Assembly: GCA_029531795.1 (NCBI GenBank)
Contig: JAPEIS010000005.1
Span: 2,168,001 to 2,232,000 of the forward strand
Direction of reading: 5' to 3'
From: Sclerotinia nivalis
Taxonomy: Eukaryota; Ascomycota; Leotiomycetes; Helotiales; Sclerotiniaceae
DNA length: 64,000 bases
Below are positions 3,796 through 60,484 of the stretch, in pieces. Below the pieces are notes generated by a model, which saw only the letters and a program-made list of their open reading frames with translations, was not told the DNA's origin and made no database searches. Position 1 is the stretch's first letter. Each line of letters starts with the position of its first letter. The translations under genes were made by a program, and so were the position numbers.

Positions 3796-3855
3796 CATAC
3801 ACAACATTATCGAAAAATTGAATTTTTCGAAAAACGCGTTTATTATCGCGTTTTA

Positions 3856-5368: not shown

Positions 5369-5369
5369 A

Positions 5370-31773: not shown

Positions 31774-31860
31774 TGTTACGATCACGGATCTTACAGTAAC
31801 CGATCGTGTGAATACACGTTATGATTTAATCGGATTAGTATGAGATTAAGGTGGTTGTAG
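31774..31860 (+). repeat. G3 5' LTR, left part
   Basis: 87 bp, TGTTACGATCACGG... up to AAGGTGGTTGTAG. It matches 53773-53859 over its whole length with only transitions (about 12). The last 13 bases are the LINE target motif. Confidence 0.92.
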
Positions 31861-31901
31861 TGTGTGTGTGTATGTGTATTATTATTTAACGGCCGGAGAC
31901 C

Positions 31902-31916
31902 GGGGACGAAGTCCTC
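31902..31916. other. Conserved hairpin in the family-B 3' tail
   Basis: GGGGAC-GAA-GTCCTC, with outer pairing GAGA...TCTC, 42-56 nt from the LINE 3' end. B2 has the same structure near 39574-39588. Hairpins near LINE 3' ends are known in some families to be read by the RT. Confidence 0.6.
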
Positions 31917-32244
31917 TTTCTCGTTGTATATCTTATTGGGTCAAAGGCTGCCAAGAAGTTATTTTTGGGTTATGAATAGCTACGTATATATAATTATATC
32001 TAAGAATTGAAAGATTCGTAGGCGTATTTCTATAGCTGCTGTGATCTTGATTTTATTTTGTAATCCTTTAAAGGGATTACGTAATATTATCAAATCTGCC
32101 AAACTGTAGTTGATCCGTTTTCGGCCCCATGACTTTCCTAATACAACCGCTTATCCAAAAAAAAAAAAAATTTTTTTTTTTTAACAAAAGAAAATACAAA
32201 GGAAAAATTTCATTATTATCAATTTATTCATCCTTGAGGATATT

Positions 32245-33666
32245 GTTATCTTTTGGGGGGGGTATGAGATTTGATATTGGAGTAGGTTTTAGAGGAAGGT
32301 ATTGGGGGTATATATCGGTGAAGAAATTGGTTCTATTTGTTCATTCTGCTAATTTTCTGGTTTCTTTGTAAGTATTGCAAAGGTATGGAAGGAGGGTTTC
32401 AGATTTGTTTTTCGGATGAGGGTGTTTTCTTTTAGCAATATTGTAGAAGAAGAAGTATAAGGGGGTTTTGTGTATATTGCATCTGTAGAAGGTATATATA
32501 TCCTGATAATGGAATTGTTTATGATAGGTTGTGAAGTCTTTATACCTTGATCGGATAGCTATCAAGTGTTCTAGAAAACTTCTGGGTAGAACAAGTTCTT
32601 TGGGGAATTTCGATGACGAATGGATCTCCAAAGCTTTGTAGAATAAGGGGATCACTATTGATTATAATTTGTTAATGGTTTTCTATTGTAAGCCTTTGGT
32701 TTCTCTTTTGAATTCTATATACGAGAAGTCTGATTCGGATTGTTCAAGGGTGGTTTCTGCCTTCGTTGTTTTATCGGCTATTTCATTCCCTACTACATCT
32801 TTGTGCTCTGGGACCCATCGGATGCAGATCGTATTATGCCTTCAGCTTGATGCTAGTTTTCGAAAGGATGTAAAGATTTCCTATAAGGAACCCGTAGAGC
32901 TCGAGAGAAACCGTACCGCCACTTCGATATTATCAAAACAAATTCAGATGTTCAGGGCCATTTTGGTTTCTAGTAGAGCGATTGCAGCTTTAAAACCTTC
33001 GAATACCGTTTCAGCTTTTATATTATATACTTCTTTATGTTTGCCTATTATGAAGCTAACTTCGCAAAGTTTATATTTATCCAAATATCCGACAATACTA
33101 TATTCTGTATTTCCGTTCGTTTGTTTCGATCCGTTAATGAAAACCACAATATCGTTTTGTAAAAGCAAACTATAGAACTCGTTGAAATCGTTCGCAGCGA
33201 TCCCTTTGCTTCGACCATTGGGGCCATTTATACAGTTCAGGGTTTGTTCCCTTGATTCAGTTTCTAGTTATTTCGGTATTACTAGAGGATTGATCTATTC
33301 TGATAATGGAAAGGATAGTATTCTTCTAGCATATCGGGTTTTGAATATATCCCGGTTTTCTCATATCCAATCTATTTTTTATGCTAAAGGGTGATAAAAA
33401 TCGAATCTCTTTATTCTGATCATTGTTGTTACAGCGATACTATCGAATTCGATTTTAGGAGGTTTGAGTCCTGATTCTCAATAGAGGGTAGCTGTATTTA
33501 TTGTTTTCCAAATTAGCAGAATTGCTCTAGCACATTCCAGAGTCACTTTAGCTAGAACGTTGATATGAGCGTCTACTCCATTGTTTATCCTATATTCTTT
33601 CCCAGGACGTGTCCTTCCCGGCCACCAGGTTTCCGCTCCGTAGTATGCCTTTTTGAGTATGCATAC
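32245..33666 (-). pseudogene. LINE B1 ORF2 remnant (RT thumb, RNase H, C-terminus)
   Basis: Minus strand. It begins with VCILKKAYYGAETWWPGRTR at the truncation point, a segment that in Tad-like LINEs follows the RT palm. RNase H is at about 33170-32700 (FINGSKQTNGNTEYSI with the catalytic Asp replaced by Asn, then AETVFEGFKAAIALL). The C-terminal part is open at 32655-32341. It is less decayed than the family-A copies on the left. The plus-strand frame at 32669-33175 (168 codons) is its mirror shadow. Confidence 0.8.
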
Positions 33667-33679
33667 TAGGTGGTCGTAG
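33667..33679. repeat. Target-motif copy between LINEs B1 and A4
   Basis: TAGGTGGTCGTAG. The same motif, in forms differing at one or a few sites, is at 31848-31860, 39520-39532, 45361-45373, 47657-47669, 53847-53859 and 60472-60484. Confidence 0.88.
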
Positions 33680-33700
33680 TGTGTGTGATATTTTTCGTCC

Positions 33701-33726
33701 GAGGCTCTGTGCGAAGCACAGGCCTC
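33701..33726. other. Conserved hairpin in the family-A 3' tail
   Basis: GAGGC-T-CTGTGC, loop GAA, GCACAG-GCCTC: an 11-bp stem with one bulge, 22-47 nt from the LINE 3' end. The same structure occurs in A5 (about 45401-45426) and A6 (about 53887-53913), and in mirror orientation in A1 (about 3730-3752) and A2 (about 9512-9535). A second stem (CCAGGGG...CCCCTGG) follows about 30 nt further in. Confidence 0.7.
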
Positions 33727-34114
33727 AAATTCCCAATTGGGATAAAGGACGCCAGGGGAGGAAGGCCCCTGGGTTTCTAATTAGCTAATCTAAATTTACT
33801 AGTATTATATATACTAAATGCTTCAGCAGGGTTTACATGATTGCCGTTGCGTATTGAGTTAATCCCTTGGGTAGATATTTCAGCTGTCCTTCACAATACA
33901 GTTAGATTCCTCGATTCCTGATCTTCTTTCCTTCGTTATCGCAATCGAGCTTTTTAATATGATTTTATCAATATAAAAAATTTTTTTTTTTAAAGTTTAT
34001 ACAAACTCAGTTTTTCCGAACCAAAACCCAACGCCTTATACAAAGAAAATCCAAAAATAATATAAAATAAAAATAAAAAATAAAAATCAAAACAATCCTT
34101 CAATCAATAAATTA

Positions 34115-37100
34115 TATAGGGAATCGAGGATATATATTCTGATAGAACCTTATAGATTTGAATCAAATTGCTAGTTTCGCTACTTCTTCTATGCTTCCCA
34201 AAAGATAAAAGATAACTTTAGATAATAATAACTTTGAAAGGATTTTTTGAGCATTTCCAATTTTACAAAAGTAAAAATGAAGAGAGGATTTTCTTTTTCT
34301 ATATGAATATAATATATAAGCATCTTCGTGATTGAAGCGGTTGTAATACGCTGCGAAATCGCCATGTTGAGATCTGGCTGCTAGAATATATTCTAGTATC
34401 GTTCGATCAAAAGAGAGCATAATCGATTTGTTGTTATAAGTTATAAAAAGATCATTGTAGCTTTGTAATGCTGTAGTTGTTTATAATTTAACTTTTGTTG
34501 ATTTGGTATTCGTTTTAGCGATTCTTTTTAAGGAGGCAAAAATGCAGATAGGATCAAATGGGAATAGGAGAGCTATTCCCTCTTTAGCTGTTTTATCCGC
34601 TACTTCGTTTTCGGGGATATCTAAATGTTCAGGAACCTATCGAATTCGAATTGAGTTAGGGCAAGTATATAGCAAGCAGGGCCTGAGAGGTTAAATTGTA
34701 GCTAGTTTGCAGAATTCTTCGAATATAGATTGAGAGGATCCAGTAGAATAAGAGTCTAATTGTATAACAACCTTTAGGTTATCCAAGAAAACCTAGAGGT
34801 CTGTAGCGAATCTAGTTGAGGGTAGCTGTATTGCTGTTTGAGCACTTTTCAAAGCTGCAGCTGCTTCGGTATCGAAGATTTCAGTATTACAGTCTAATGA
34901 GAAAGTCTGTCGATCTATTTGCAGATTGTATTGATAAATCACTGATCTACCTTCTGTAGTACTATCCAAAGCTTCGCTTTTCGAACTATCGAAGAAGACT
35001 TGCAAATCACTTTTTGGAATTGTAGATATAAACCTTTCGAAATCCTTAATTGTTTGTTTTTTCGAACGATCGAGAGGACTACCGATCCGGGTTTCTATAA
35101 TAATATACAGTTCTTTGTTCTTCCAAAAGGGAAAAACAATTGGATTGATATATTTAGCTTTTGAAAAAGCTAGGATAATTCTTGAGAATCTTGATTTAGC
35201 AATTCTAGCTTCAACTTTAGCTAGGATATTTTTGGTTCGAATTCGAAGGGGATGTTTAGGATCTAGCTAAACCGTTCGGGTAGCGAAACTCTAGGATATC
35301 AAATTTAGCTTAATCTCAAAAAGCATCAGATTTGATTCCTTGTATAGAACAGCAGTATTAGTTGTACGGAATATAAAGAGGATTGTTCGAGCATTAGCTA
35401 GTATAATCTTATTCAAAAACTTCAAATATCTATCTACTTGATTCGAGATTGTGAAGTTTAGACTTCGTTTCTTAGTTCGGCTAAACCACCAAGTTTCAAT
35501 TGCAAAGTAACATTTCTTCAGAATATAGATTGTAATTGTTCTTTAAAACAAAATTGATAGAATACCTCGAATTGTCCTTCCAAGCGAATACAATGTATTT
35601 ATAATAGTAAAAGCCTTAACTGAAAGGATCTGGATATGAGATTTGAAACTCAGTTCTCTATCGAAGTAAACCTCTAGCTATTTCAATAAACCTGGTTTCT
35701 CTATTATTAAAAGATTTTCTGTATGAATAATAGAACTTTCGATATCTTTCCTGAAGCCTCTAAAGAAATGTATCAATTCAGATTTCATAGAATCGAAAGT
35801 GATCCCTTCAGATTTGCTTCAATCCAAAGCCTCCAGCATTTCGGATTGTAGTTGATTACAATTAAATTGTAAGTTTGAAGAAAAAGCTACTAATCCAATG
35901 TTGTCTGTATATCCAAATCTTCGAGTAGGATTGCCTAATCAAAACAAAGGAGCTATATAAAGCATAAAAAGGATAAATGAAATTGAGGAGCCTTGTAGCA
36001 AACCATATCCAATACTAATACTGAGTTTTGTTTCGCCATCAAACCGAATACGAATTGATTGATTTATAAAGAACGATTGTATCTATCGAACTAGGTTATC
36101 AGGCCATCCTTGTTCCCTGAGTCGGCAAACCAAATATCCTGGAAGAACAGTATCAAAAGCACCTTTGATATTCATAGTTAATAAGGTAGCTTTAGAACCT
36201 GAATTCAAAGCTATTTCCAAATTATATATAAAGCAAATTGTAAGATCGATTGATGAATACAAAGGAAGCGTTCCGAACTGTTATTTGACTAATACTTTGA
36301 GGGTTATAACAATCCAGGATATCTTCTTTGCAATCAAATGTTCGAGATCTTTTTCTAATATTAAGAGCAAGACTATTGGTCTATAGGATTTAGGGCTTGT
36401 GCGATCTGATTTGTTCGGTTTCGGAACGATGGCTACAATCGTTGATCGGAAGCATTTAGGGTGGTGATCTATTTCGAAGCATTTTTGAAAGAGTTGTAAG
36501 ATATATGGTTCGATCAATGGCTATACTAATTGTAGGATCTTGGTAGGGATCTCGTCTATTCCTGGAGCTGTATTATCCGTACGAAGGATAGCAGTTTGAA
36601 TATCCTGAATTGTGATAGCAGGAAAAGTAATTGAACGAATGGAAGTTGAAAGCGAATCAAATGGGATATTGTTAACTTCAGCTGTATTGGTCAACAGATT
36701 ATTGATGAGTAAATCTCTTTTAGTTTGAATTATTGTAGCAAAAGAATGATCTAAAAAATCTATTAAAGAAGGAGTTCGATATGTTTTAATTGATTGATAC
36801 CATTTTGTTATTTTAAAAACATCTTTTATTTCCTTGATTAAATCAAATTTAGAAAGCCAGAATTCCTTTTTTACTTTTTTGACAATCTTTCGAAGATTTT
36901 GTTTTGATTCTGAAGAGTTGTTTGTTCGGTTTTCTTGAACAGCTGTCCAGCAGGTCTCGTTCTATTATAGTTGATCTATGTTTCGGCCGAGTGATCTTTG
37001 AGTTGATTCTGTATATACTGATTGTAAAGCTTGAGTGATATCTAAAGTTAATTTATTAAGATCTGTGGTTGTGTTCAGAGCTAGTAGATCTAGATTCAAT

Positions 37101-37915
37101 AGATTCTTTATTAATAAAATAGAGAAGAGTTTTTTGTTTAATATATTGATTCAGAGTCTTTGGATCGGGTTCTGAAACTTTGTATTCCAATTCAAAATTG
37201 TCAATAAGGATCGATGATCAGAAATTATATCCAAATACAATACAGAAATTGTATTGGCTGTATATAGTCCTGAAAGAAAAGCTAGATCGAGAACGTTACC
37301 CAAATTGTAGATAGATTTACTGATTGTAGAAAGAAAATTGAAAGAATTTGTATCTAATCAGATTATAAAAGATTTTGTAGAATTTGAATGTGAAGAGTAA
37401 AAGGGATTCCATTTCGAATAATGAAGGTTTAGATTCTTTGTAAGAAGTATAGAATTTAAAATATTCGAAAGTAAATTAAAGAGAGTTTGTATTGCTTGGT
37501 TTTTATTTGTACAATCTTTAAAAGTATTATAAATATTAATGATTGTAAAAATAGAATCAATTAAAGATTGAATTTGTAAAAATAATAAATCCTGGGAGGA
37601 TACAGACCAAAGCTAACTAGTTCGAATGTCTGTATTTTTTCGGGTATAAGATATTATATGAAGTTGGGTTTCTCAATTGTCGAGTGGTGTGAAAGTTTCA
37701 TAAATAGGATGGGATTTAATGATTCGGTGTGAGATATCTGAGAATGTATAAAGTTCTTGAATTAGAATTATATCAATATAAGAATCATTAGTTAAAGAAA
37801 GTGTTAATTTGTGTAAAGTAATGTTTTTGGTTATATTAGTTTGTAAAATGATTAATGGTTTAGAAGATAATCTAGGATTATATATTAAAAGGAATCGAAA
37901 AAGAAGGAGCTTTTA
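34115..37915 (-). pseudogene. LINE A4 ORF2 remnant
   Basis: Minus strand. The C-terminal domain is open at 34420-34163 (HGDFAAYYNRFNHEDAYILYS). RNase H is at about 35010-34560, with FFDSSKSEALDS, DTEAAAALKSAQTAIQ and a later HLDIPENE-type box. RT is at about 36600-35700; the active-site box near 35915 reads YTDN (from YADD). The segment 36517-36281 covers the FQKCFEI-HHPKCFR and NKSDRTSPKSYRPI motifs at the RT N-terminus. Endonuclease is at about 37900-36980. Interrupted by stops but clearly better preserved than A2 and A3. Confidence 0.82.
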
Positions 37916-37919
37916 ATGT

Positions 37920-39455
37920 AATGAAACGATTAGAAAGATTAGAAAAGGATGGTATCAATGAAGATAATATCGAAAGAATTCGGATTGAAGTTGAAGGAAT
38001 AATAGGTTCCTCTATAGGGGAATCGGTTTTTAAAATTCGAAAGCATTTTGTATTAGTACAAGTTCTAGTTTTAACTTCTTTTGAGGTTTTCTGGATAGCT
38101 TGTTTTTCCGATTTGCTTTTGAAGCTTTTGTTAGTTAGACAAAGGGAGCAATGTAGATCGTTTGCAGGATAGAGGCCTCTACAATGTAGGCACCTTGTTG
38201 GGTAAGTATAAATTGTATTGTATCAAATTGAATGATTCTTTTCTGTATATTCAATTGTATTACAGATTCGGTATCTTTTTGGACGAAAGCAAACTCGAGT
38301 ATTGTATCATTGAAAGTATCGAGTATATTGGATTATCTTGGATTTGAAAACGATTTGGGAAATGTTAATTGTAGTTTTTAGAATCCGAAGGTTCTTGGGA
38401 AGGATTGTATATTGCAAAATTGGAAAACTCAAGAATCAAATAGAATTATATAATCCGGATTCTTTGCTTTATATAGATTCAATTGTTTGGATCGCTTGTT
38501 GTTCTGTATTATCGTAGATAACATCGAGTATAGTTTCCGATTTGATTGGGACGATAATCAATTATTATGAGTTATTTAGAATTGTAATGGTTTGTGGAAT
38601 GTAATTCAATCGATAGGTAATTCATGATTGTTGTCGTTCGATTTTGCAAGTTTCGAATACTTTTTCGATTATATTTGAAAGGTTTTCTAAAGCTGTTAAG
38701 TTCGCTAAAGAGTTTGTATATAATACGAATCCAATATTTATTGTTTGGATTTCTTTTAGAAGTTTAGTATCGTTTCCTAATTGTTTTTTCAATGTATTAA
38801 GTACAACGAAGGAACTGGCTTTTCGAACTGGATGATCGAGTCCAATTCGAATAAAAAAACAAGTATCAGTTTTGTATGAGATTTGAGATTGAGTTTTGAA
38901 TTGAGATCCGGTTCGGTTCCCAGTTTTTGGGTTTGTAGATTGTATAATTGATAATAAAGGAATCGTAGTTTTTTGAGTATAAATAGAATCCTTGAGATAT
39001 TGGATTGTAAAAGGGGTTCTTATAGGTTTAGCGATTTCAAATACAAATACCGATTGAAAGGTTTGTATATTAGGGCCAAGAAGATTGATAGAAGTTTTAA
39101 TAAAAGGTTTGGTAGATCGAAAAGGATAAGATCCATTGATAAATGTATCGAAGTATTTATATGCTATAAAAAAGATATCGATATATAATACAATCAAAGG
39201 TTTTCGAAATCGAGTAGAGAGAGTCCGAACTGTTTCGATATTGAGATAATCGTTTTATAACGAAATGATGGGGCTAAAAATCTGTTGATCTTTATTTGCT
39301 CTATTAGTAACAGTATTAATTATATTAATAAAAGCTTGGGAAAGGAAGAAAGTCAAGGGGACGGGAAGTATAATAACAGAAACGCGTTTGTATAATACTT
39401 ACCGGGGCTGAAAAGTTTCGTTTTTAAATCCTATAGATGATAAAAACGATCGATT
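37920..39455 (-). pseudogene. LINE A4 ORF1 remnant
   Basis: Gag-like ORF1. The open part 39197-38622 (191 codons) covers the middle, with KPFIKTSINLLGPNIQTFQ, YLKDSIYTQKTTIPLLSIIQ and FALYTNSLANLTALENLSN. The zinc-knuckle part at about 38340-38150 matches that of A6, with stops. The protein is basic and lacks membrane segments. The start lies near 39450 by comparison with A2; no clean ATG is seen. Confidence 0.75.
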
Positions 39456-39507
39456 GATTAATAAAACGCGATAATAAACGCGTTTTTCGAAAAATTCAAT
39501 TCTTCTC

Positions 39508-39532
39508 AAGATGATTGTTAAGATGGTCGTAG
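39508..39532. repeat. Doubled target motif between LINEs A4 and B2
   Basis: AAGATGATTGTTA is followed at once by AGATGGTCGTAG. The first unit matches the motif AAGATGGTCGTAG except at four positions, three of them transitions, so two copies appear to lie in tandem with no element between them. Confidence 0.65.
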
Positions 39533-39836
39533 TGTGTGTATGTGTGTGTGTTATTATTTAACGGCCGGAGACTGGGGACGAAGTCCTCTTTCTCGTTGTA
39601 TATTTTATTGGGTTAAAGGCCGTTAGGGAGTTACTCCTGAGTTATGAATAACTATATATATATAATTATATCTAAGAATTAAAAGATTTGTAGACGTATT
39701 TCTATAGTTGTTGTGATTTTGGTTTTATTTTGTAATTTTTTAAAAGGATTATGTAATATTATCAAATCTGCTAAGCTGTAGCTGGTCCATCTTTGGCCTT
39801 GTGACTTTTCTAATACAACCGTTTATCCAAAAAAAA

Positions 39837-39873
<37 letters not shown>

Positions 39874-39924
39874 AGAAAATACAAAGGAAAAATTTCATTA
39901 TTATTAATTTATTTATTCTCGAGG

Positions 39925-42900
39925 ATATTGTTATCTTATAGGGAGGGTATGAGATTTGGTATCGGGGTAAATTCCAAAGGAAAATGTCGAAGGTATATAT
40001 CGATAAAGAAATTGATTCTATTTGTCCATTCTACCAATTTTCTGGTTTTTTTGTAAATACCGCAAAGATATAAAAGAAAAATCTCAGGTTTGCTTTTCGG
40101 ATGAAAATATTTTCTCTTAACAATGTTGCAAAAAAAGAAATACAAAAGAATTTTGTATACACCATATCTGCAAAAGGTACACATATCCTGATGATGGAAT
40201 TGTTCATGATAGGTTACAAAGTCCCTATACCCTGATCGGATAGTTATCAAACATCCTAAGAAATTTCTAGGTAGGGCAAATTCTTTGGGGAATTTCGATA
40301 ACGAATGGATTTCCAAAGTTTTATAGAATAAAAAAATCATTGTCGACTACAATTTATCAATGGCTTTTTATTATAAACCTTTGGTTTCTTTTTTGAATTC
40401 TACATATGAGGAATCTGATTTGGATTGTTCAAGAGCAACTCCTACCTTCGCTGTTTTGTCGGCTGTTTCATTCCCTGCTATATCTTTGTGCTCTGGGATT
40501 TATCAAATGCGGATTGTATTATATCTCCAGTTTGATACCAACCTTCAAAAGGATATAAAGGTTTTCTATAAAAAACCCATAAAGCTCGAAAGAAGTTGTA
40601 TCGTTACTTCGATATTATCAAAACAGATTTAGATGTTTGGGGCTATTCTGACTTTTAATAGAACAATTACAGTTTTAAGATCTTCAAATACTGCTTCAAT
40701 TTCTATATTATATATTTCCTTATGTTTGCCTATTGCAAAGCTAATTTCGCAAAGTTTGTATTCATTTAGATATCCGATAACACTACATCCTGTATTTCTA
40801 TTTGTTTGTTTCAATCCGTTAGTGAAAACTACAATGTTGTTTTGTAAAAGCAGGCTATAAAACTTGTTGAAATCGTTTGTAGTGATCCCTTTGCTTCAGC
40901 CATTGGGGTCATTTATATGATTCAGGGTTTATTCCCTTGATTCAGTTTCTAACCATTTTGACACTACTAAAGGATTGATTTGTTCTAATAATAAAAGGGA
41001 TAGTATTTTTCTGGTATATCAGGTTTTGAATATATCTCGATTTTTTTGTATCTAATTTGCTTTTTATACTAAAGGATAATAAAAATCGAATCTCTTTGTT
41101 TTGATTGTTGTTGTCGTAGTGATACTATCGAGTTCGATCTTAGGGGGTCTAAATTCTGATTCTCAATAAAGAGTAACTGTATTTATTGTTTTCCAAATTG
41201 ACAAAATTGTTTTAATACATTCCAGAGTCGTTTTAGTTAGGATATTAATATAAACATCTACTCCATTGTTTATTCTATATTCTTTCCCAAAACGTATCCT
41301 TCCCAGCTACTAGATTTTTGTTCCATAATATACCTTTTTAAGTATACATACTTTGGTTATTTATCGAAATAAATTGGTTAAAACATTCCTTATCGAATTG
41401 TTCAAAGATTTAAAAGCCTTAACAATTATTATTGTCTTTGCTATGAATTCTCTTATATACTATTTGAAAAAAAGTTTCTTGTTAAACAAAATTCCGAATC
41501 ATTTAAGGTATAATCTCCCGTTATTTAATTCTTTGATTGTAAAATTCTTTATTGGGATTGTCGAAGTTGTACTTGAATTCTGGTTCGTTCTTTGTTTCAA
41601 GAAATAAATCAATTCGGATTTGTTCAGATCGAAAATGATCTCTTCCGAGATACCCCAAAAAAAGATCTCGTTGATTGTAAAAGTAAAATATTTGATATTA
41701 TTGGATAGGGAGTTTAAAACTACTACAATAGCAATATTGTTTGTATATCCGAATTTGATTGTGTTCTTTTTTATTCTGAAGATCGGGGCGATGTATAGTA
41801 TAAAGAGAATTGATGAGATAAATAATTCTTGAAGGAATTTGTAATCAATTTCTGTTTTTGGATCGATGATCCCGTTCAGTTGGATTTGTATAGATTTTTT
41901 TATAATAAAAGAGATTAACCATTTGATTAGATTATATAACTATCCTTGCTCACACAATTTGTATATAAATCAACCTAGGAGGATTACATCGAAAACTCCC
42001 TTGATATCTAATATTAGCAAAAAAGCTGATTCATTTATACTAAAGGATTATTCAATATCATAAGTAAGATATATCATTAAATCAACTACTGATTTCAAGG
42101 GAAGGGCTCCAAATTGATGTGTGGTTATAACCTTGTAGGTGACCGATGTCTAGGATATCTGTCTAACAACCAACCATTCTAGTCCCTTGCCTAGTACTGA
42201 TAGAAGAACAATAGATCTGTACGATTTCGGGGTCAATAGATCTATCTTGTTAGGCTTAAATATAATAGCTAGGATTACACTCCAAAAGAGTTTCGGATGA
42301 TAGTCGATATCTAAACAACTGTGAAATAATATAATGACATGTGATTCAATAAATGATCAAACTTCCTTCAATATCACTATTAAGAGTTTGTTTACCCCTA
42401 AAACTATATTCCCTGTTTTGAGGATAACATCCCGTATTGAAGAATTGTTAATAATTGGGGGAAATAAGGAAATGAATAAGACTGTAAAACAATCGATGGG
42501 GATATCTCCTACTTCAATTACTCTTTTTAGAAGATTATTGATTAGGATTCTTTGTTTGACTAAGGTAGCCGTTACTAATAACGAATTGAGCACCAAAAAG
42601 TTCTTCAAAGAAAATGAATGAAAAGACCCTGTAATCCTATACCACCTAATCATTACAAAAACGTCTTTGGCCTGTTATACCTGATCCATTTTTGTATGAT
42701 AGAAGGATCTCTATACTTTCCTAATCGTTTTTCTGAATTCGCTTTTACTTGATAGCTGATGATAGTACTAAATGCGAACATCACTGCATTCAATATTCCA
42801 CCACAATTATCCTTTGTTTTAGCCTGTTGTTCTTTTAGTTACTCCATTATAAGCACTATAGATTACCGATATCAGATTTTCAGTGTACAAATCAAGATCC

Positions 42901-43735
42901 TATTCATTTCTTAAAGCCTCTTTGATTGTGGTCAGATTTGTTTCCAGGAGGAGTTTGAAGAGAGTAGAGTTTAGGCTTTTGAGCTTTAACCGTTCTGTAG
43001 TGTATTGTTATTCTGTTTCCCAAGGGATTTCGGTTATAAATAAGAAGTGATCCGATATGATATCCAGATAGATTGTTACCCTTGTATTGAATCCCATTTG
43101 AGTTAATACATTGAAACCGAAAACTAAATCTAGGATATTACCAGTTGTGTATATAGATTTGTTAATCTCAGATAAGAAGGTCAGTTATAAATTGTTTAGT
43201 TATCTAATAAAGGGAGAGGCTTCTGGAAAGTGAATGTTTTTGTAGAAAGGTTGTTAAGAAGGATGTAATAAATTAAAATCTCTGTATAGGAATATATTTT
43301 TTGTGAAGAAAATATTTGGAATATTCATAAGAGTCTAAATAATTAATTGTACCCGGATTGAAGTTCTATGGGGGGAGTTATATATATTAATAATATTGAT
43401 TTTGTGATTAAATTTGTTTTCCAATTGGAGGAAAAGTATATCCGAAAAGAAATGTAAATCTTCGGTGGAAAATTTGATTTGAGTAATGGGGATGTTTAAT
43501 TCTTTGTGAATATATGAAATCATTTTAGAACATCCGCTTTCTTTCCAATTGTCCGTAGGAGAGTAGTATTGGTATGTTGAATGTTATTTAATTAACCGAT
43601 AAGAAAGGTTTTGTAATATATATGGTTCTTGTATAAGGATAATATCGATATTTTCATTATATGTTGTTGAAAGTGTTATTTCGTGTGTAATTGTACTTCT
43701 GTCTGTATTAATTTGAAAAATGGAAAGATACTATT
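39925..43735 (-). pseudogene. LINE B2 ORF2 remnant
   Basis: Minus strand. The C-terminus is open at 40340-39936. RNase H is at about 40830-40400 (the region 40814-40629 holds the EIEAVFEDLKTVIVLL box). RT is at about 42700-41350. The segment 42653-42357 holds the N-terminal RT linker (LKNFLVLNSLLV, KQRILINNLLKRVIEVGDIPID). The active-site box near 41750-41732 reads YTNN (from YADD), so it is dead. Endonuclease is at about 43735-42900, open at 43523-43335 (SYIHKELNIPITQIKFSTEDLHFFSDILFLQL in pieces). Stops throughout. Confidence 0.78.
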
Positions 43736-43759
43736 TACTTATTATTGTGAGAATTAAAG

Positions 43760-45115
43760 AATTCAATTGCCTTTGAGGTAGCAAATCTGGTGGAGTGGAT
43801 CGTGGATGAAGGTGCTCTTAGGGGGGGTTGTGGGGGAGGGGTGTAAGGTCTAGAAAGGGTGGATTCTTCTGCTGTAGTGTTTATATTGTCGGTTAGTTTA
43901 AGGGTTGTTGTTGTTTTTGGTGCCGAAATATATCTAATTTTGTTTTGAGTATTGTTTATAACAAGGTTTGTTGTTTTTTTGATTTTATTTTTTTGTTTTT
44001 TAGTGAAACTTTTTTTTTGATTGGTATAGAAAAAACATTTTTTATTATCTGCTACATGTAGACTGTAGTAGTATAAACAACGGGGTGGGTAGGTATGTTT
44101 ACCTTATATATCGCATCTATTCGAATATTTATATTCCTTGTGGTTTGTAGTGTTGTAAAGGTAGCATTTGTTAGCTTTAGTATAGCTTCTTTTGTTGTGC
44201 CAGTTTCAGTATTTGTTGTATTAAATGATCTTGTACTTTCGGATTATTGATCGGACGGTGATTGTATATCCGAAAATATATAAGATTTTCGGGATTTGTT
44301 TTATTTTGGTGTTGTGTGGAAAATTGATGAATCAGTTGTAGGTCGAGTTAGACTTATCTGCTTTGTTGTTTGATATTTCTGCAATTGAAAGTAGAATGAT
44401 GTGTGTTAGTTCCTTAATGGTTGTAGATAGCATTTCTGGTGTTATGTTGTTGATTGTGTATTAATTGTCTTCGAAGTATTCAATTCATCTAGGAATATTG
44501 GAGATCTGGTATGAAAATTATTGTGTATTTCATTCTATTTGTACTTTCCCGATCGAAAAGTCAAAGTAGGTATAGATAGTCTATATTTGTGATTCCAGTA
44601 TGTTGATGGAATCTGGTTTGTAAAAGCAAAATGCAAATCCTGATTTTGTGTGTTGCACTTCTTTAAGGACTGTGTTGTATATTTCTAATTGATTTTTGAG
44701 GTTAATGTAAATAGTGTAAATATATATGTCCCTCATCGAATGGTTGGATGGGAGTCGGATGAAGAGTCTATTATCTTCGTTGTTTTTTCGAATGTTCTTG
44801 TCTTTTGTAATCGAAGATTTGTCCTTAGGTTTTTCCGTTTCGTTTGGTGCAGAGGTTGTAGTTTTTGCGTATGTAGTTTTAATATTGGTCTGGAAGGGTT
44901 GAAGAGTGGGGGAGGGGGTTCTAGTAATTATAAATCTTGTAAATATCGTATCAGAGATAAATACTTGAAAGTGGTTTGTTGTTACAGATACGAGTTCGTT
45001 GTTGAGTTTATTTAGGGCCTCTTTTAAATGTCGAGGAAGGTTATGGTTGTTGATGTGGTATTGGTCTAGAAATTTGACCATTGGATTGAAGAGGGATTGC
45101 CCTTTAAACGCTCTA
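43760..45115 (-). pseudogene. LINE B2 ORF1 remnant (gag-like, zinc knuckles)
   Basis: The open stretch 45081-44581 (166 codons) begins VKFLDQYHINNHNLPRHLKE and ends FAFCFYKPDSINILE, the latter analogous to FALYTNSL-x-LT in family A ORF1. Near 44185-44040 a knuckle array survives in part (NRCDI-x-GKHTYPPRC and HVADNKKC), typical of the ORF1 C-terminus in Tad-like LINEs. The middle contains a Lys/Asn-rich hinge. The N-terminus near 45115 has no clear ATG. Confidence 0.7.
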
Positions 45116-45361
45116 GTGGAAGCTGCTGTAACAGATTTCGTTAGAGCTTTCTGAAAAAATCCTTCGAAGGTGATAGATGGTATTATGAGTAATAATATTT
45201 TTTTTTTTTGTTTTTATTACGATACCCGGCGGGCAGTGTTGTTTCGTAATGTAAAGTATAAAATAAACAATATAGTTATAATCGATTTCTCTTCTGATAA
45301 AGAGAAAAGTCGTATGTGTTCCCCGATAATGTATGTTGTATATATATGTGTATGTGTGTGT

Positions 45362-45373
45362 AGATGGTCGTAG
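45362..45373. repeat. Target-motif copy between LINEs B2 and A5
   Basis: AGATGGTCGTAG, identical to 39521-39532 and 47658-47669. Confidence 0.9.
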
Positions 45374-47657
45374 TGTATGTGTGTGTGTGATATTTTTCGT
45401 CCGAGGCTCTGTACGAAGCACAGGCCTCAAATTCCCAATTGGGACAAAGGACGCCAGGGGAGGAAGGCCCCTGGGTTTCTAATTAGCTAATCTAAATTTA
45501 CTAATATTATATATACTAAATGCTTCAGTAGAGTTTATATGATTGCTATTGTATATTGAATTAATCCCTTAGGTAGATATTTCAGCTATCCTCCACAATA
45601 CAATTAGATCCCTCGATTCCTGATCTCCTCTCCTTCGTTATCGCAATCGAGCTTTTTAATATGATTTTGTTAATATAAAGATTTTTTTTTTTTTTTAAAG
45701 TTTATATAAACTTAATCTTTCCGAATCAAAACCCAACGCCTTATACAAAGAAAATCCAAAAATAATATAAAATAAAAATAAAAATAAAAATCAAAGCAAT
45801 CCTTCAATTAATAAATTATATAGAGAATCGAGGATATACATCTTAATAGAATCTTGTAAATTTGAACCAAACTGTTAATTTCGTTGTTTCTTTTATACTT
45901 CCCAAAAGATAAGGGATGACTTCAGATAATGATAACTTTGAAAGGATTTTTTGAGTATTTCCAATTTTACAAAAGTAAAAATGAAAAAAGAATTTTCTTT
46001 TCCCATATAAACATAATATATAAACATCTTCGTGATTGAAGCGATCATGATACACTGCGAAATCGCTGTATTGAGATCTGACTGCTAGAATATATCCTAG
46101 TATCGTTCGATCAAAAGAGAGCATAATCGATTTATTATTATAAATTATAAAAAGATCATTGTAACTTTGTAGTACTATAATTGTCTATAATTTAGCTTTT
46201 GCTGATTTGGTATTCGTTTTAGCGATTCTTTTCAAGGAAACGAGAGTACAGATAGAATCAAATAGGGATGGGAATGCTGCTCCTTCTTTAGCTGTTTTGT
46301 CCGCTGCTTTGTTTCCGGGGATATCTAGATGCCCAGGAACCTATCGAATTCGAATTGAACCAGGGCGAGTATATAGCAAACGGGGCCTGAGAGATCAAGC
46401 TATAGGTAGTTCACAGAATTCTTCAAATACAGATTGAAAGGATTCAGTAGAATGAAAGCCTAATCGTATAACAATCTCTAGGTTATCCAAGAAAACCTAG
46501 AGGTTTGTAGCAAATCTAGCCGAGGATAGCTGTATTGTTGCTTAAATATCTTTCAAAGCTGCAACTGCTTCAGCATCGAAGACTTCAGCATTATAGCCTA
46601 ATGAGAAAGCCTATCGATCCACTTGCAGATTGTATTGATAAATCATTGATCCACCTCCTATAACACCATCCAAAACTTCGCTTTTCGAACCATCGAAAAA
46701 GACTTGCAAATCACTTTTTGAAATTGTAGATATAAACCTTTCGAAATCCTTAGCTGCTTGTTTTTTCGAATGATCGAGAGGGTTATCGATCTGGGTTTCT
46801 GTGATAATATGTAGTTCTTTGTTCTTTCAAAGGGGAAGAGCAATTGGATTGATATATTCAGTTTTTGGAAGAGCTAGGATAATTCTTAAGAACCTTGATT
46901 CAAAAGTTTCAAATGTCCATCCACTTGATTCGAGATTGTGAAGTTTAGGCTTCGTTTCCTAATTCAGCTAAGCCACCAAGTTTCGACTACAAAGTAACAT
47001 TTCTTCAGGATATAGACTGTAACCGCTCTTTGAAGCAAAATTGATGGGATACCTCGAGTTGTCCTTCCAAGCGAATGCAGTGCGTTTGTAATAGTAAAAG
47101 CCTTAGCTGAAAGGATTTGGACATAAAATTTGAAACTCAGTTCTCTATCGAAGTAAACCCTTAATCATCTCAATAAACCTGGTTTCTCTATTATTAAAGG
47201 ATTTTCTGTATAAATAGTAGGGTTTTCGATATCTTTCCTAAAGCCTTTAAAGAAATATATCAATTCAGACTTCATAGGATCGAAAGTGATCCCTTCAGAT
47301 TTGCCCCAATCCAAAGCCTCCAGCATTTCGGATTGTAATTGATTACAATTAAATTGTAAGCTTAAAGAAAAAGCTACTAGTACAATATCGTTTGCATATC
47401 CAAATCTTCGAGTAGGATTGTCTAACCAAAACAAAGGAGCTATATAAAGCATAAAAAGAATAAATGAAATTGAGGAGTCTTATAACAAACCATATCCAAT
47501 ACTAGTACTGGGCCCTGTTTCGCCATCAAGCCGAATACGAATTGATCGATTTGTAGAGAACGATTGTATCCATCGAACTAGGTTATCAGGCCATCCTTGT
47601 TCTCTGAATCGGCGAACCAAACGTCCTGAGAGAACAGCATCAAAAGCACCTTTGATA
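45374..47657 (-). mobile_element. LINE A5, family A, 5' truncated
   Basis: 3' tail from 45374, internal T-run near 45678, ORF2 back to the RT region, where it stops in the AFDAVL segment (CAAAAGCACCTTTGATA). It is flanked by AGATGGTCGTAG on both sides (45362-45373 and 47658-47669), a perfect 12-bp duplication. It carries an internal deletion of about 215-220 bp near 46896 relative to A6. Confidence 0.9.
45810..47657 (-). pseudogene. LINE A5 ORF2 remnant (RT, RNase H)
   Basis: Minus strand. The RT part is open at 47452-47165, with FGYANDIVLVA (active-site YADD changed to YAND), EALDWGKSEGITFD and KSELIYFF. At about 46896 the sequence jumps from an ATTCAA site in the connection region to the KLLN region, losing about 72 residues, so the product could not fold normally. 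RNase H is at about 46720-46300 and the C-terminal domain is open at 46124-45843. Among the family-A copies its sequence is close to A4 and A6. Confidence 0.8.
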
Positions 47658-47669
47658 AGATGGTCGTAG

Positions 47670-48033
47670 GAACAAATAAGTACAGACTATATTAATATCA
47701 GATCATATGATGGAGCATGGAGCATTGGAGTTTCGAAGGCTCCCAATGCTTCTAGAGCATTGGAGTTTCGAAGGCTTCTAATGTTCCCGGAGTATTGGAG
47801 CTTCGAGAGTTCCTAGGGCTTCTAAATATGAAGGTCTATATAAGTAGGATGGATTCCTTTATTTGTAGAGCTTTGTATTCAAGAATAATCATTAATTTAA
47901 ATACTATAGTTATTATACAATACAATTGTTATATTTTTTATTCTTATCAAATCCTTGTTTGATCTTTAATAGAAACTACTACAGTTTTTCTATAAGTCTT
48001 TTGATCATTTCTTAGTGATAAAGGATTGTAACA
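47670..48033 (+). repeat. G3 5' LTR, right part (promoter half)
   Basis: Starts GAACAAATAAG right after the target motif and ends GATTGTAACA. It contains three 35-bp tandem units (47721, 47756 and 47791; AGCATTGGAGTTTCGAAGG core) and a TATA-like CTATATAAG at about 47832, followed by a plausible transcription start area, as expected for an LTR promoter. The 3' LTR has only two of the 35-bp units. Confidence 0.88.
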
Positions 48034-48095
48034 ATGTAATACTTTGAGCACCTTTATTAACTCAAACACCGACTTGGTATATCTCACTTCGAATT

Positions 48096-51000
48096 ATGTT
48101 TTCACAAGACCCCGTCATTAGCACCTCTCCGAACAATAACAATAACGACAGCAATATCGAGCTACCAGATGTCGATTTTGTCCCAATACAGATCACGGAA
48201 ACTTTACAAGTAGCAATGTTCGATAAGTATCACGACAATTGAAGGGAATTCGAAATCTTTCTATTCCAAATCGAAATGTACTTCAAATTCAATGTTATCA
48301 AATTTGTGATTCTCGATAATTATAGTCTGTATATTTTCTTTTACCTTTATGGAAAAACAATCAAATGGATTCAATTTTATTTTAGAGATTACTTTACCAA
48401 ATCTGGAGATCATTATATGATAATCATATGAATCATTTTCGAAAGCTTCGTAGAATTCAAGAGAGAAATCGGACGAGTATTTGGGGATATCGACGAAGTT
48501 AAGATAGCCGAACGAAATTTATTTGCTTTAAAACAAACTAGAGCAGCGATCAATTATATTACGGAATTCAGACGATATATTAATCAAACCGGATGGGATC
48601 AATAGACTTTGCTAAATCATTTCTATCGCGGCCTCAAAGATCATATAAAATTGGAATTTGTAAGAAGTATCGAATTTACAAATATCAATGAAATGATAAA
48701 ACTTGTAATTAAGATTGATAATCGACTTTACGAATATCAGCGAGATAAGAAGTTCCAAAACCATTCAGATCAGAATTATAAGCGAAACGAAGGAAGACAA
48801 TGTTAAGTTAAGAATGAAAGCTATAGAGATCCGATAGAGCTGGATGCTATTATCCGAGGAAAGCTATCCAAGGAAGAAATGGATAAGTGCAGAAATGAAA
48901 AGTTATACTTCGAATGCGGGCAATCAGGATATAGAGCTGCAATTCATCGCCAAAAGAAACAAGGAAACTTCAATCGGAATAAGAAACCTTGGAAAAACAA
49001 GAAGCAATTCAATGCGATATTCGTATTTCAATTATGCACTCTAAATTGTATAAATTTAGATTTTAAAGAACAATTGGAGGATAATCAATTCGAAGAATCA
49101 GAAGATTCAGAAGAAGAATCAATTTTGTGGATCAATCGAAAGCCAAGTTCAGGGGAACTTTGGATTATACAGTATATCGACGAATGGAATCGTTGAATTT
49201 GGAAATTTGGAGAAACAAATGAAGGAACTTATAACGATGATCTAAGTGTGAAAAGTGTTGTAAAGGGAGAAATTTATAAGGCAAGAATTATCGACAAATA
49301 TAGAATCTTATAGTATAGAGTTATGATCAATTCCTTCTTTGTTGAAAAAACCTTATATCATTATATGAAAATGTCTGAATCAGAAGAAATATAGGAAGTC
49401 ATTTACTTCCATCACGATATTAATCATTCTATATACAAGATACACCTAGTACGATAGGTAGGGAATGAATATTTGGTGCAAGCTCAAATCATACAATCTC
49501 TACAGACAATAGGATATTTTCTCTGAGTTATATAAGGACTACCTCTAGTCACTAAATGGAAAAACATATTCGACAACGAGATTTTAATTGGTCAAACAAT
49601 TACAAATGATAAAGAAGAAGATTATTGGAATGTTTCTCCATCGGGTCAGTTAAATCGCTTAATTGACCAAATTGACCAAATTGACCAAAACAATCGAACG
49701 GGTTAAAATAGGCAATTAAACGCTACAGGATACAGCGGATAGATCAACCTGATGGTTATAATCAATGGGCACCGGCTTAAAGCTATGATAGATTCTAGAG
49801 CAACCGGAAATTTTATCGCACAAAAAGCTGCGCAAGAAGCTAGTATAAGGTTCCAAACGAAGAAATACCTATATGTATTGCAATTAGTAAACGGATAACT
49901 AATTGATGCTGAAAATAAGATAATACGAATGAAGACCAAGCCAACAGAAATACAGATAAATGAACATCACGAATTCATACAACTTGATGTAGTTCTATTA
50001 GGGAATCACCAGGTTATATTGGGTATGTTATGGTTGATACAGCACAACCCTAATATTAATTGGAATCGAGGAATTTTAATATTCGATCAATGCGATTACG
50101 ATCATCGAGATATATACAAGTCTGTGAGACTGAGTATATACTTTAGGGAATTGAAGGCAAACAATTTCATCGATGTAGGATACCGAACCCAGGATCCTTT
50201 ATTGACGGATATACTAGTAGAGTATAGGAAATATACAAAACTTTTCAAGAAAAGAAAAGGCTACGAAGTTTTATCAGAATATAAGCTATGGGATTACGAA
50301 ATAATACTAATAGAAAAAAAGATATCTTTATTTAGATCTATTTATCAAATGTCGAAAAGAGATTTGAGGATGTTCAAGGAATATATTGATGATAGTTTAA
50401 AGAAAGAATAGATCAGAGAATCCATCTTATAGATAGTTAGTCTTGTATTATATGTATTTAAAAAGGATGAAACCAAAAGGTTATATGTAGATTACTGCAA
50501 GTTCAACGATATGACAATTAAGGATCGATATTCACTTCCATTAGCTATGGAATTGAGAGATCGATTAGGGAAAGCTAAGATCTTCTTCAAGTTTGATTTA
50601 CGAAACAGTTTCCATTTAATTAGAATGAAGAAAGGTGAAGAATGGAAAATAGTATTCAGAATTCGATATGGATTATACGAGTATCAGGTTATGCTATTTG
50701 GATTAATTAATGTATCAGTAATATGTATGTGTTTGGTAAACAACGTATTGAGAAAGTATTTTGATATTTGTTGTATTTGTTATTTGGATGACATATTGAT
50801 CTATTCAGAGATTCTGAAACAATACATTCAAGATGTCAGCAATATTTTAGTATGCTTGGAAGAAGCAGACCTTCAGTGCAAATTCAGCAAATGTGTATTC
50901 TATGTTACAGAAACGGAGTTTTTAGGTTATACAATCTTTCCAAGAGGATTCAAGATGAGTTCAGACAAATTACAGGCTATTCAAGAATGGAGTTAGTCTA

Positions 51001-53198
51001 CAAGTGTTAAGGAAGTACAATCCTTTTTAGGATTTGCCAATTTCTATTGTAGGTTCATTAAAGATTATTCGAAAATAGCAATTCTGATGTCTGAAATAAC
51101 CAAAAAGAATTAGGGAGAGTTTCAATGAACGGAAAAGACATAGAAAGTTTTCGAATTACTCAAGCAAATCTTTATGAAAGAACCAATACTTTTATTATTT
51201 GACCCTGAATTATTAATTGAAATCGAAACCGATTCTTCGGATTATACTCTGAGGGCAGTATTAAGTTAGCTAGGAGCGAATAAGAAATAACAATCAATAG
51301 TCTACTATTTCTGTAAATTATTGTTAGCAGAATTGAATTATAAGATTTATGATAAGGAGCTGCTAACTATAATCGAAGTATTTAAGGAATGGAGAGTCTA
51401 TTTGGAAGGATCGAAATATACAGTGCAGGTATATACCGATTATAAGAATTTAGTTTATTTCATTACAATAAAGGAATTAAATAGACGGCAGGTCAGATGG
51501 TCCGAAATCATGGTTGCCTACAATTTTCGCATTTCATATATCAAAGGAACAGAAAACGCTAGAGCCGATGCTCTCAACAGAAAACCGGAATATTTACAAA
51601 ATAAAGTATACAAAACATATACGATCTTAAAGGAAGAAGATGGTGCATTAGTATACAACAAACTATAACTCGCTATTTCCTTCAGAGTTGATTATAGTAC
51701 AATCAAGGAGCAATTGAAAGTAGAATATAAACAAGATATTATTACGAAACGAATCCTCAAGAATACAGACAACTTAGAAAAGGAATTCAGTATTAACGAA
51801 GAGTTCATATATTTCTATAACAAATTATATATACCTTTCAGATTAGCTGAAGGATATATTCGAGAACAATATGAGTTTCCAGTTTATAAGCATCAAAAAG
51901 TAATTAGAACTTTTGTCAGAATCAGGAAAAAAGTTTACTTTCCAAAAATGAGGACTACAATTGAGAAAGTAATTGGGAATTGCAATACTTGTATACGGAA
52001 CAAAACCGTTAGACATGCTCTATATAATCAACTCAAAACCCCTGAATTACCTACTCAACCGTGGAAGTCCATCGTATGGAATTTCGTAATGAAACTACCT
52101 ATATCCAAAGAACCAATCATATTAAAGGAATACGATTCCATTCTAATAATGACAGACAGATTAACGAAATTCGTTTATATAATACTATTCTATAAGAAAT
52201 GGATAGCAGATAATCTGATTTATATATTCCTACGAAACATAATCAGCATTTATAGTATACCAGAAGAAATAATTTCAAATAGAGATAAACTTTTTATATC
52301 AAAATTCTGGACCACTCTTATAGTATTATTTGGAATCAAACGCAAACTATCTACTACGTTTCATCCTCAAACAGATGGTCAAATAGAACGTTTAAATCAA
52401 ACAATGAAAGCTTATCTATATTACTATATCAACTATAAACAAAACGATTAGGTTGAACTACTATTCTTAGCTCAATTCGTATATAATACATCGGAGACAG
52501 AAACAACAAAGGTAATACCAGTATATACTAACTATAGATATACTCCATTAGCCTACTGTTCACCACTCTCACAAACAGCGAATACTAACGAAGTTATAAA
52601 AGATATATCGGAAATCAAGGAACTATACGAACAGCTTTCATTGGATCTACAGTTCATAGCCTTGAGAACAGCTACATATTACAACAAATCACGAAATATA
52701 AAACCTACTTTTAAAAAAGGGGATAAAGTTTATTTGATTCGAAGAAACATTCAAATACAACGATCAAACGATAAACTAAACCACAAAAAACTAGAACCAT
52801 TCGAAATCAAAGAAATAATAGAATCTATCAATTTCAGATTGAAACTATCAAATACCATGAATATCCACCCAATATTCCATATATCCTTACTCGAACTAAT
52901 GCTACTAGAAGCGCCGAATGCATCAAAGACCATAATCGAATCCATCAATCCAAATACCAAATACAATATCGAAACGATATTAGATTATAAGTACGTCAGA
53001 AATACAATAAAGTATTTAATCAAATAACTCGATTACCTATATTTAGAAAACATTTGGGAACCCAAGAAGAATCTTAATTGCCCTGAAAAGCTGTAGGCAT
53101 TCTATCAACGATATCCGGATCTACCCAGAAAGAATCAAAGGGATTCGAGAAAGACGAAAAATCGAAACCCTTCAAAAGATCGAACAGAGTATTGCTAA
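48096..53198 (+). pseudogene. G3 gag-pol remnant in a single frame, with chromodomain
   Basis: ATG at 48096 (MFSQDPVIST), ending at TAA 53196-53198; all open pieces share one frame. Gag is at 48096-49196, with the conserved YFECGQSGYRAAIH knuckle remnant at about 48906-48950. The protease box MIDSRATGNFI (from DSGATG) is at about 49775-49815. RT is at about 50420-50990, with FKFDLRNSFHLIR and an intact YLDD at 50781-50792. RNase H is at about 51210-51600 (ETDSSDYTLRAVL, YKIYDKELLTI). The integrase zinc region (CNTC) is at about 51985; its core has DRLTKF, ISNRDKLF and HPQTDGQIERLNQ at about 52090-52430. The chromodomain (IENIWEPKKNL-like) is at about 53000-53120. About 15 stops, mostly former Trp, Gln or Arg codons. 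The best preserved gypsy element here. Confidence 0.92.
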
Positions 53199-53589
53199 GA
53201 TCGAAAGTATTTCCGTTTGCTTTTTCCTTCTCCGCTTACTCTTTTGCTAATCGTTCTTTCTCTTTCAAAGCATCTAATTCATTCAAATATTTAAGACCAC
53301 GATCGGTCATCCGTTTTTTACAATCATATAGGAATTTCTTTTGTTTATACAAACACAAAATTTTAGTAAGCACTTCTTCCTCTTCATGATCTAATTTCTC
53401 TTTTTGTTTATTCAGAAAAATTCAATCCGAAATACAAAACACTTCCCGATCCCAATCTTCTTTCGAAGGAAATTCGGTATCACAAAGAATTCTAACCAAA
53501 ACATACTCGGAATAACGAGAACATTGAAGATTATTAATATCTTTCACATAGCGAAGTTTTTCATTGCGACAATAAGAACAGAAAGACAT
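53074..53589 (-). pseudogene. Antisense ORF of G3 (Cys-rich N-terminus, charged helix)
   Basis: A 172-codon minus-strand frame, ATG at 53589 and stop at 53076-53074, opposite to gag-pol and overlapping its last 125 bases. The N-terminus MSFCSYCRNEKLRYV...LQCSRYSEYV has CxxC plus a further Cys, a possible zinc-binding cluster. Next comes a charged, coiled-coil-prone stretch (KQKEKLDHEEEEVLTKILCL, then KQKKFLYDCKKRM, ELDALKEKERLAKE) and a hydrophobic/acidic tail ending MPTAFQGN. Two in-frame stops (codons 56 and 118) are RIP-type. From memory, similar small antisense proteins are predicted beside gypsy elements in other fungi, but I cannot verify this. Function unknown. Confidence 0.68.
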
Positions 53590-53772
53590 TTCAACTCCAT
53601 AATTATTAATAGATTGAACCAAAAGAATCTATTCGGAACGTTTTCGAGCAAAAAGTAGGGATTTCTTAATTTTGGAAGAAGATATAATAGGAAAAAAGAG
53701 TTTTACATTTTTCTTTAGAATATAGCCCCGTCTTATAAGCTTGAAACAAGCTTTAGCTTAAATAGGGGATAG
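53590..53772 (+). other. G3 3' untranslated region with hairpin and polypurine tract
   Basis: Holds a small hairpin AAGCTTG-AAA-CAAGCTT (53737-53753) and, directly before the 3' LTR, the purine-rich run AATAGGGGATAG (53761-53772), which fits a polypurine tract for plus-strand priming. It probably also holds the start region of the antisense ORF. No other gene. Confidence 0.65.
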
Positions 53773-53859
53773 TGTTACGATTACGGATCTTATAGTAATT
53801 GATCGTATGAATATACGTTATGATTTGATCGGATTAATATAAAATTAAGGTAATTATAG
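53773..53859 (+). repeat. G3 3' LTR, left part
   Basis: TGTTACGATTACGG... to AAGGTAATTATAG, 87 bp, same length and break point as 31774-31860. LINE A6 begins at 53860. Confidence 0.92.
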
Positions 53860-58060: not shown

Positions 58061-58070
58061 TAATCTAGAA

Positions 58071-60471: not shown

Positions 60472-60484
60472 AAGGTAATTATAG

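Follow-up and report, generated by a model that had tools for sequence, protein, structure and literature searches.

In the genome of the fungus Sclerotinia nivalis (50.3 Mb in 31 contigs), we analyzed a window of 64,000 nucleotides (C5:2168001-2232000) in which long interspersed nuclear elements (LINEs) are stacked in a long terminal repeat (LTR) of a retrotransposon. Two LINE families, which we call A and B, and their short non-autonomous derivatives very probably insert by target-primed reverse transcription (TPRT), strongly favoring a single phosphodiester bond of this LTR, and stack at the 5' ends of older LINEs.

Between positions 31,848 and 47,669 of the window, four minus-strand LINEs lie head to tail in the order B1-A4-B2-A5, with their 3' ends pointing left. 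Each is bounded by a 13-bp copy of AAGGTGGTCGTAG, as read on the + strand, or of a variant of it (Table 1). This agrees with the original prediction, made from the letters of the window, of four LINEs of two families at one LTR site between copies of a target motif; alignments and a motif scan confirmed it. The aligned parts of B1 and B2 are 81% identical and those of A4 and A5 are 88–89% identical, whereas B2 and three A copies have common stretches of only 46–54 bp. The two halves of the LTR resume at or before 31860 and at or after 47670, and the 13 bp are present once in uninterrupted copies of the LTR elsewhere. A motif of 12–13 bp had been predicted, and the repeated unit is 13 bp; within it, AGATGGTCGTAG is exact at 39521, 45362, and 47658, as predicted, and the copies at 33668 and 31849 have one mismatch and two mismatches, respectively. 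A scan of the window for AGATGGTCGTAG gave 8 matches with at most two mismatches versus 2.3 expected, and 0 of 100 shuffles reached 8. The suggestion of more than one motif between A4 and B2 was fair: AAGATGATTGTT, immediately left of the copy at 39520, resembles a decayed second copy. A further LINE, A6, lies at the same nucleotide of the paired 3' LTR. Insertions have thus struck the two LTRs of a single retrotransposon.

In the LINE sense, the uninterrupted LTR site is CGTTTGTTC^CTACGACCACCTTAATC, and the (CA)n tail at the LINE 3' end joins at ^. The target site duplication (TSD) is the 13 bp CTACGACCACCTT. With its right-hand flank, an empty site is thus CGTTTGTTC CTACGACCACCTT AATCTC. Where a LINE has inserted, its (CA)n tail abuts CTACGACCACCTT and the second 13-bp copy comes after TTTGTTC. 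We searched the genome for these patterns in one insertion orientation. The uninterrupted site matched 58 places with at most three mismatches (reversed control: 0), and 52 of these start with GATT, as the LTR does. The other six are probably right-hand junctions of filled sites; the one that we read (C10:880038, in locus L070) is such a junction. The pattern for the left junction of a filled site matched 37 places (reversed control: 0), and 27 of these keep the LTR prefix GATTA. We read seven of the 10 that do not: L027, L043, L050, and L106 run into another LINE, L008 is an LTR with a small deletion, and L049 and L075 run into other sequence. The right-hand half (TTTGTTC and a degenerate 13-mer) matched 140 places with at most one mismatch, of which the first 100 were examined; its two reversed controls matched 4 places each.

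We also surveyed the flanks of loci that had been retrieved because they resemble one A 3' end or one B 3' end, ignoring the flank itself. (The A 3' end has 181 matches in the genome with at most two mismatches.) The survey covered 30 of 40 scored matches for A, from 203 candidates, and 19 of 19 for B. The motif was called if at least 12 of 13 positions agreed, with C-to-T and G-to-A changes counted as compatible, and junctions with identical flanks were counted once. By this rule, 13 of 30 distinct A junctions and 9 of 17 distinct B junctions have the motif (a tenth B junction, L049, scores 11/13). Background 60-base windows from the loci and the window had it in 154 of 11,966 cases and base-shuffled ones in 38 of 5,983. 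The enrichment has Fisher p-values of 4e-17 for A and 3e-13 for B, where the junctions within one array are not independent; by our own count there are about 10 separate LTR sites for A and about 8 for B. Thus the genome-wide enrichment of A and B 3' junctions for this motif and this LTR position, which had been put forward as a check, is present.

The LTR site is a strong preference, not an exclusive one. A second target, CTTCTATATAGTCAG, was used by both A (L022, L029, L097/L098) and B (L037). It lies within direct repeats of 156 bp (window positions 13735-13890 and 20300-20455) that are 92% identical and 6.6 kb apart; the repeat that carries it is probably another LTR element, with the 156-bp repeats as its LTRs. 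A further target, ATATCTCTTCAAGCT, was found at A1/A2 in the window and at L024/L025, two places with the same flank.

We propose that TPRT proceeds as follows. The endonuclease of the element would nick the + strand of the LTR at GGTGGTCGTAG^GAACAAACG, and the freed ...GTAG-3' end would prime cDNA synthesis on the (CA)n tail. Cleavage of the second strand 13 bp away would then give rise to the TSD CTACGACCACCTT. Because the TSD copy on the 5' side keeps its TTTGTTC neighbor, the site would survive and could be hit again, and so new LINEs would stack at the 5' end of older ones.

Alternatively, the hot spot might be set by the chromatin, replication, or DNA shape of the LTR instead of by base recognition by the endonuclease. 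This would fit with the heavily mutated TSDs that are still found on both sides of the LINEs in L011 and A6 (see below), and with the location of the second target, shared by A and B, in another repeat with direct terminal repeats. However, among the 22 junctions with the motif the position varies by no more than one base and the orientation is always the same, and we consider this alternative unlikely.

Stacks are common: by our reading, 11 of 30 A junctions and at least 5 of 17 B junctions lead into a second LINE or a short element, either at its 5' end or at a truncated start. In between stand the TSD or other target sequence and up to about 35 bases of filler (none in some cases). Stacking is not restricted to the LTR site, as A1 and A2 (window positions 3778-9575) are stacked head to tail with ATATCTCTTCAAGCT between and after them. 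Other stacks at targets besides this LTR site are L021 with L101 (target TAACCAAAATGACCA) and L098 with L097.

If a TSD copy mutates before the next insertion, then the mutation is copied into both of the resulting copies, and such changes make it possible to tell which LINE came first. We assembled 14 arrays by hand and read their order in this way. In the array of the window, CTACGACCATCT is present in the three copies closest to TTTGTTC. The two far copies keep C at that position, and the outermost of them also has a private G-to-A change. The inner copy likewise shares the derived state of the copy on the TTTGTTC side, and not that of the copy on the AATCTC side, in C2:2534-2545k, C1:4154-4162k, C2:1852-1860k, C18:623-631k, C7:640-647k, and C5:2153-2160k. 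Across the seven informative arrays, the shared changes always placed the newer LINE in the TTTGTTC-side copy (7/7, two-sided p = 0.016). The other arrays were uninformative: there was no derived base in the copies seen (C1:762-775k, C12:1712-1723k, and C2:1705-1717k), a derived base was common to all copies (C11:351-363k), the change was private to the right copy (C16:598-606k and C4:1210-1216k), or the right end lay outside what was read (C4:47-53k). Read most simply, these shared mutations mean that a later LINE inserts into the TSD copy that adjoins the 5' end of an earlier one, where the TTTGTTC neighbor is intact.

Mutations in the TSD also bear on what is recognized. Matching mutated TSDs flank single insertions in L011 (TTACAATTATTTT, around a 1.6-kb A element) and at A6 (CTATAATTACCTT), and the mutated TSD of L010 (CTATGACCACCTT) is matched at C10:118649. 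In L011, 6 of the 13 TSD bases are not those of the LTR consensus. Most simply, decay of the target would have preceded the LINEs of L011 and A6, and insertion would have tolerated as many as six changes in 13 bp. We infer that recognition lies mainly outside the TSD, on the TTTGTTC side.

Several observations weigh against our proposal. The remaining 17 of 30 A junctions and 8 of 17 B junctions are elsewhere, so the specificity is loose, and even at the LTR site the TSD may depart from the consensus as far as it does in L011. The matching changes in L011 and A6 could also have arisen by parallel mutation of both TSD copies instead of by decay followed by insertion. Many of the target mutations in the TSD copies are C-to-T or G-to-A, the type expected of repeat-induced point mutation (RIP), and the AT-rich, C-to-T-like decay of the repeats fits RIP as well. 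RIP could change two copies independently, which would weaken the arguments about order and timing. RIP prefers the CA context, though, and the derived change in the window is in the CC context. The arrays were picked by hand, and the left-end pattern favors little-mutated copies, so the test of order may be biased. Finally, the arrays are known from the assembled contigs alone.

We also considered ways in which the arrays or the many filled sites could arise with fewer insertions. If one insertion, TSD included, had been duplicated locally or by unequal crossing-over, the units would likewise be separated by a TSD copy, and in some arrays units of the same family are about 5.8–5.9 kb apart. 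But the window has units of two families, of several lengths, and with different truncation points, and the fillers that follow the TSD vary between units, which makes recombination very improbable. Or one insertion of a LINE into the LTR might have been multiplied by movement of the LTR retrotransposon, so that many filled sites would represent one event. The filled LTR copies do have different outer flanks, as moved copies would, and the portion of a report on the poplar LINE Celine that we drew on raises the same doubt and sets it aside (PMC11288735). We give this idea very little credence, because LINE family, 5' start, and TSD mutations vary among the filled sites, and because the two LTRs of the element in the window hold different LINEs. 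That several LINE RNAs were joined in one TPRT event, by template jumping or read-through, is hardly credible: in L105, the filler that separates the TSD from the next LINE does include part of the second target (CTTCTATATAGTCAG), which would fit with carry-over of 5' flank from a source element, but at the LTR site a TSD copy lies between units, neighboring copies share derived bases, and every tail-to-5'-end junction that we read has intervening bases (which in L013, L017, and L042 were not matched to a TSD copy). Separate insertions at a recurring target, as originally predicted, are supported genome-wide by the fixed position, the 13-bp TSD between units, the varied truncations and fillers, and the derived bases shared by neighboring copies.

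The C-terminal parts of open reading frame 2 (ORF2) of A and B are 47% identical in amino acids over 465 columns. The pieces upstream of the reverse transcriptase (RT) also align (27/70 identical); their position and inspection by eye mark them as parts of the endonuclease, although they have no Pfam hit. Judging from these alignments, A and B are sister LINE families; they are of the apurinic/apyrimidinic endonuclease (APE) type. The two families had been described as having different proteins, and their sequences do differ, but their type is the same. A shared target is therefore expected and may be inherited; it had been taken to argue for a site-preferring endonuclease or a shared chromatin or DNA feature, of which the strong site preference holds up, but the sharing itself may have this origin and the site is not exclusive.

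Open frames of 1270 amino acids with endonuclease (PF14529) and RT (PF00078) domains are present on C3, C6, and C8. We take these as A because A 3' ends lie downstream, among the matches listed. Since these frames are open, the A family may still be able to move, and its endonuclease is directly testable. RNase_H was found in the C8 copy (L021) and in the B copies L045 and L049, and Pfam identifies RNase_H and RVT_1 in intact frames elsewhere. Pfam found no LINE domain in the decayed LINE pieces of the window; in a scan of four frames, the two from A6 likewise had none. (ORF1 of A6 has a Cys/His-rich stretch by eye, a possible zinc knuckle as in Tad-like LINEs, with no Pfam hit.) With APE-type endonuclease, RT, and RNase H in ORF2, these LINEs are Tad-like and may belong to the Tad clade. 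An unnamed protein comes closest to a 464-amino-acid stretch of A ORF2, at 79% identity, and the named relatives are from ascomycetes including Sclerotinia, Lachnellula, Aspergillus, Talaromyces, and Monilinia.

Two side observations concern other LINE copies. Five A copies at the LTR site (L004, L011, L014, L023, and L079) start near one internal point, roughly 1.6 kb before the 3' end: the first bases are CCCCCTCCGAATCC, or the copy begins slightly inside that sequence. This may be a recurrent truncation point or the start of a separate short RNA. And another LINE (on C9, C16, C19, C20, C21, C22, and C26) has eight copies with identical RT and endonuclease scores, seven with an open frame of 1265 amino acids and one with 816, and six of them on C19-C22 and C26. 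It is possibly a recent family.

The short elements (L015, L075, L077, L063, L040, and L048) are about 0.9–1.0 kb long and share a core of about 0.68 kb, which starts with GGCCGGCGAAGACGG; the 5' end is truncated or mutated in some. Their 3' ends match the last ~230 nt of A (L015, L075, L077, and L063) or ~300 nt of B (L040 and L048), and those of L015, L075, and L077 occupy the LTR site. In several, a putative ribozyme-like 5' start directly follows the TSD. The consensus of ribozymes like that of hepatitis delta virus (HDV) is a nested pseudoknot of P1, P2, P3, P1.1, and P4. The first 44 nt of the short elements, of A6, and of the A copy beside L021 fit the HDV-like P1, P3, and P1.1, and we counted these three because MAFFT misaligned P2 and P4. 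Over nine sequences, 96.3% of 108 cells are paired and the covariation score is 0.326, and 0 of 500 shuffles reach either value; slid structures are 29–55% paired. On the other side, 102 of 500 shuffles reach three pairs with changes on both sides and 72 of 500 reach the number of pair types. All of the compensatory changes come from two A sequences, so the covariation is in effect one comparison. Rfam gave no ribozyme hit at E ≤ 1 for seven loci and window positions 31000-64000 (a weak snoRNA match, far below the gathering score, was taken as chance), and single-sequence folding of the A6 5' end was no better than for shuffles (z = -0.81). It is possible, if doubtful, that a lineage of fungal LINEs has specialized on fixed points in the LTRs of other retrotransposons, at least two repeats of this kind, with mixed stacks of autonomous A, autonomous B, and non-autonomous elements built through the regenerating TSD, and with a self-cleaving 5' ribozyme that cuts read-through transcripts into units.

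The features of the LTR retrotransposon and of its LINEs are listed in Table 1. The integrase zinc-binding domain of the internal region (PF17921) lies within 51714-52451 (E = 1.2e-10).

Table 1. The LTR retrotransposon in the window and the LINEs inserted in its two LTRs.
Feature	Position	Strand	Basis or remark
5' LTR, left part, including TSD copy 31848-31860 (AAGGTGGTTGTAG)	31774..31860	+	matches uninterrupted LTR copies elsewhere and the left part of the 3' LTR
B1, B LINE, 5' truncated, 1.8 kb	31861..33666	-	81% identity to the 3' third of B2; B 3' end at left edge
TSD copy TAGGTGGTCGTAG	33667..33679	+	
A4, A LINE, 5.8 kb	33680..39519	-	alignment to A5; A 3' end at C5:2201682
TSD copy AAGATGGTCGTAG, derived base	39520..39532	+	
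B2, B LINE, 5.8 kb	39533..45360	-	alignment to B1; piece upstream of RT aligns to the matching A6 piece
TSD copy TAGATGGTCGTAG, derived base	45361..45373	+	
A5, A LINE, 5' truncated, ~0.2 kb internal deletion, 2.3 kb	45374..47656	-	alignment to A4
TSD copy AAGATGGTCGTAG, derived base, adjoins right part of LTR	47657..47669	+	
5' LTR, right part	47670..48033	+	end set by eye at GTAACA
LTR retrotransposon internal region, decayed	48034..53772	+	integrase zinc-binding domain
3' LTR, left part, including TSD copy 53847-53859 (AAGGTAATTATAG)	53773..53859	+	
A6, A LINE, 6.6 kb, putative ribozyme-like 5' end	53860..60471	-	inserted in the 3' LTR at the nucleotide used in the 5' LTR; flanked by identical 13-bp TSD copies
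A6, second TSD copy AAGGTAATTATAG	60472..60484	+	
3' LTR, right part	60485..60769	+	right end approximate (~60,769)

Our literature search found no LINE aimed at one LTR site, which is not proof of absence; Celine came nearest but differs. The LTR target appears to be new, as do its joint use by two sister families and mixed short elements, the second target in another terminal repeat that both families use, the TSDs with matching mutations on both sides, the trace of target mutations preserved in the TSDs, and the short non-autonomous elements that have a ribozyme-like 5' start and an A or B tail. Because the TSD copies record mutations, the tolerance of the endonuclease may be read from nature. 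Tx1L of Xenopus is likewise a LINE that favors a particular site in a mobile element of a different kind, in its case a DNA transposon instead of an LTR, and we know of no stacking by Tx1L.

Celine is mostly inside Gypsy-like LTR retrotransposons, but in the part of that report that we drew on, each copy has its own TSD sequence, there is no fixed LTR site, and the association is ascribed to shared enrichment at centromeres (PMC11288735). MoTeR and FoTeR are site-specific LINEs of fungi, and FoTeR copies show RIP; as described in the excerpted account, they target telomeres with a restriction-like endonuclease (PMC12857005), whereas A is of the APE type and targets an LTR. The short elements resemble the R2/R1 hybrid SIDEs (short internally deleted elements) that occur inside R1 arrays, according to the sections consulted (PMC3414825), although here one core of about 0.68 kb is joined to an A or B 3' end and the ribozyme is putative.

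The closest parallel is R1 itself. Tandem R1 arrays in Drosophila 28S genes were inferred to grow by insertion of new copies into the TSD that adjoins an older copy's 5' end; as in our arrays, tandem LINEs at one target have a TSD between them (14 bp for R1 and 13 bp here), and the 5' junctions vary and include non-templated bases (Stage and Eickbush 2009, PMC2718515, as far as the excerpt goes). A and B are not R1-clade LINEs by insertion at the R1 site of 28S ribosomal DNA (rDNA), as their target is an LTR. Furthermore, two families share the target here, the preference is looser, the target decays, and RNase H is present, which sets them apart from R1 as portrayed in that excerpt. What the LINEs do share with R1 is stacking of new copies at the old 5' TSD, as found in the seven informative arrays of the 14 assembled by hand, with parallel mutation as a caveat. 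The original prediction was right that the host is an LTR and not rDNA or telomere repeats, but this mode of stacking had already been inferred for R1. By analogy, then, we view this as R1-like behavior in a fungal LINE aimed at an LTR, and not as a new type of mechanism. It suggests that R1-style use of a self-renewing target extends beyond rDNA, with an LTR as the landing site.

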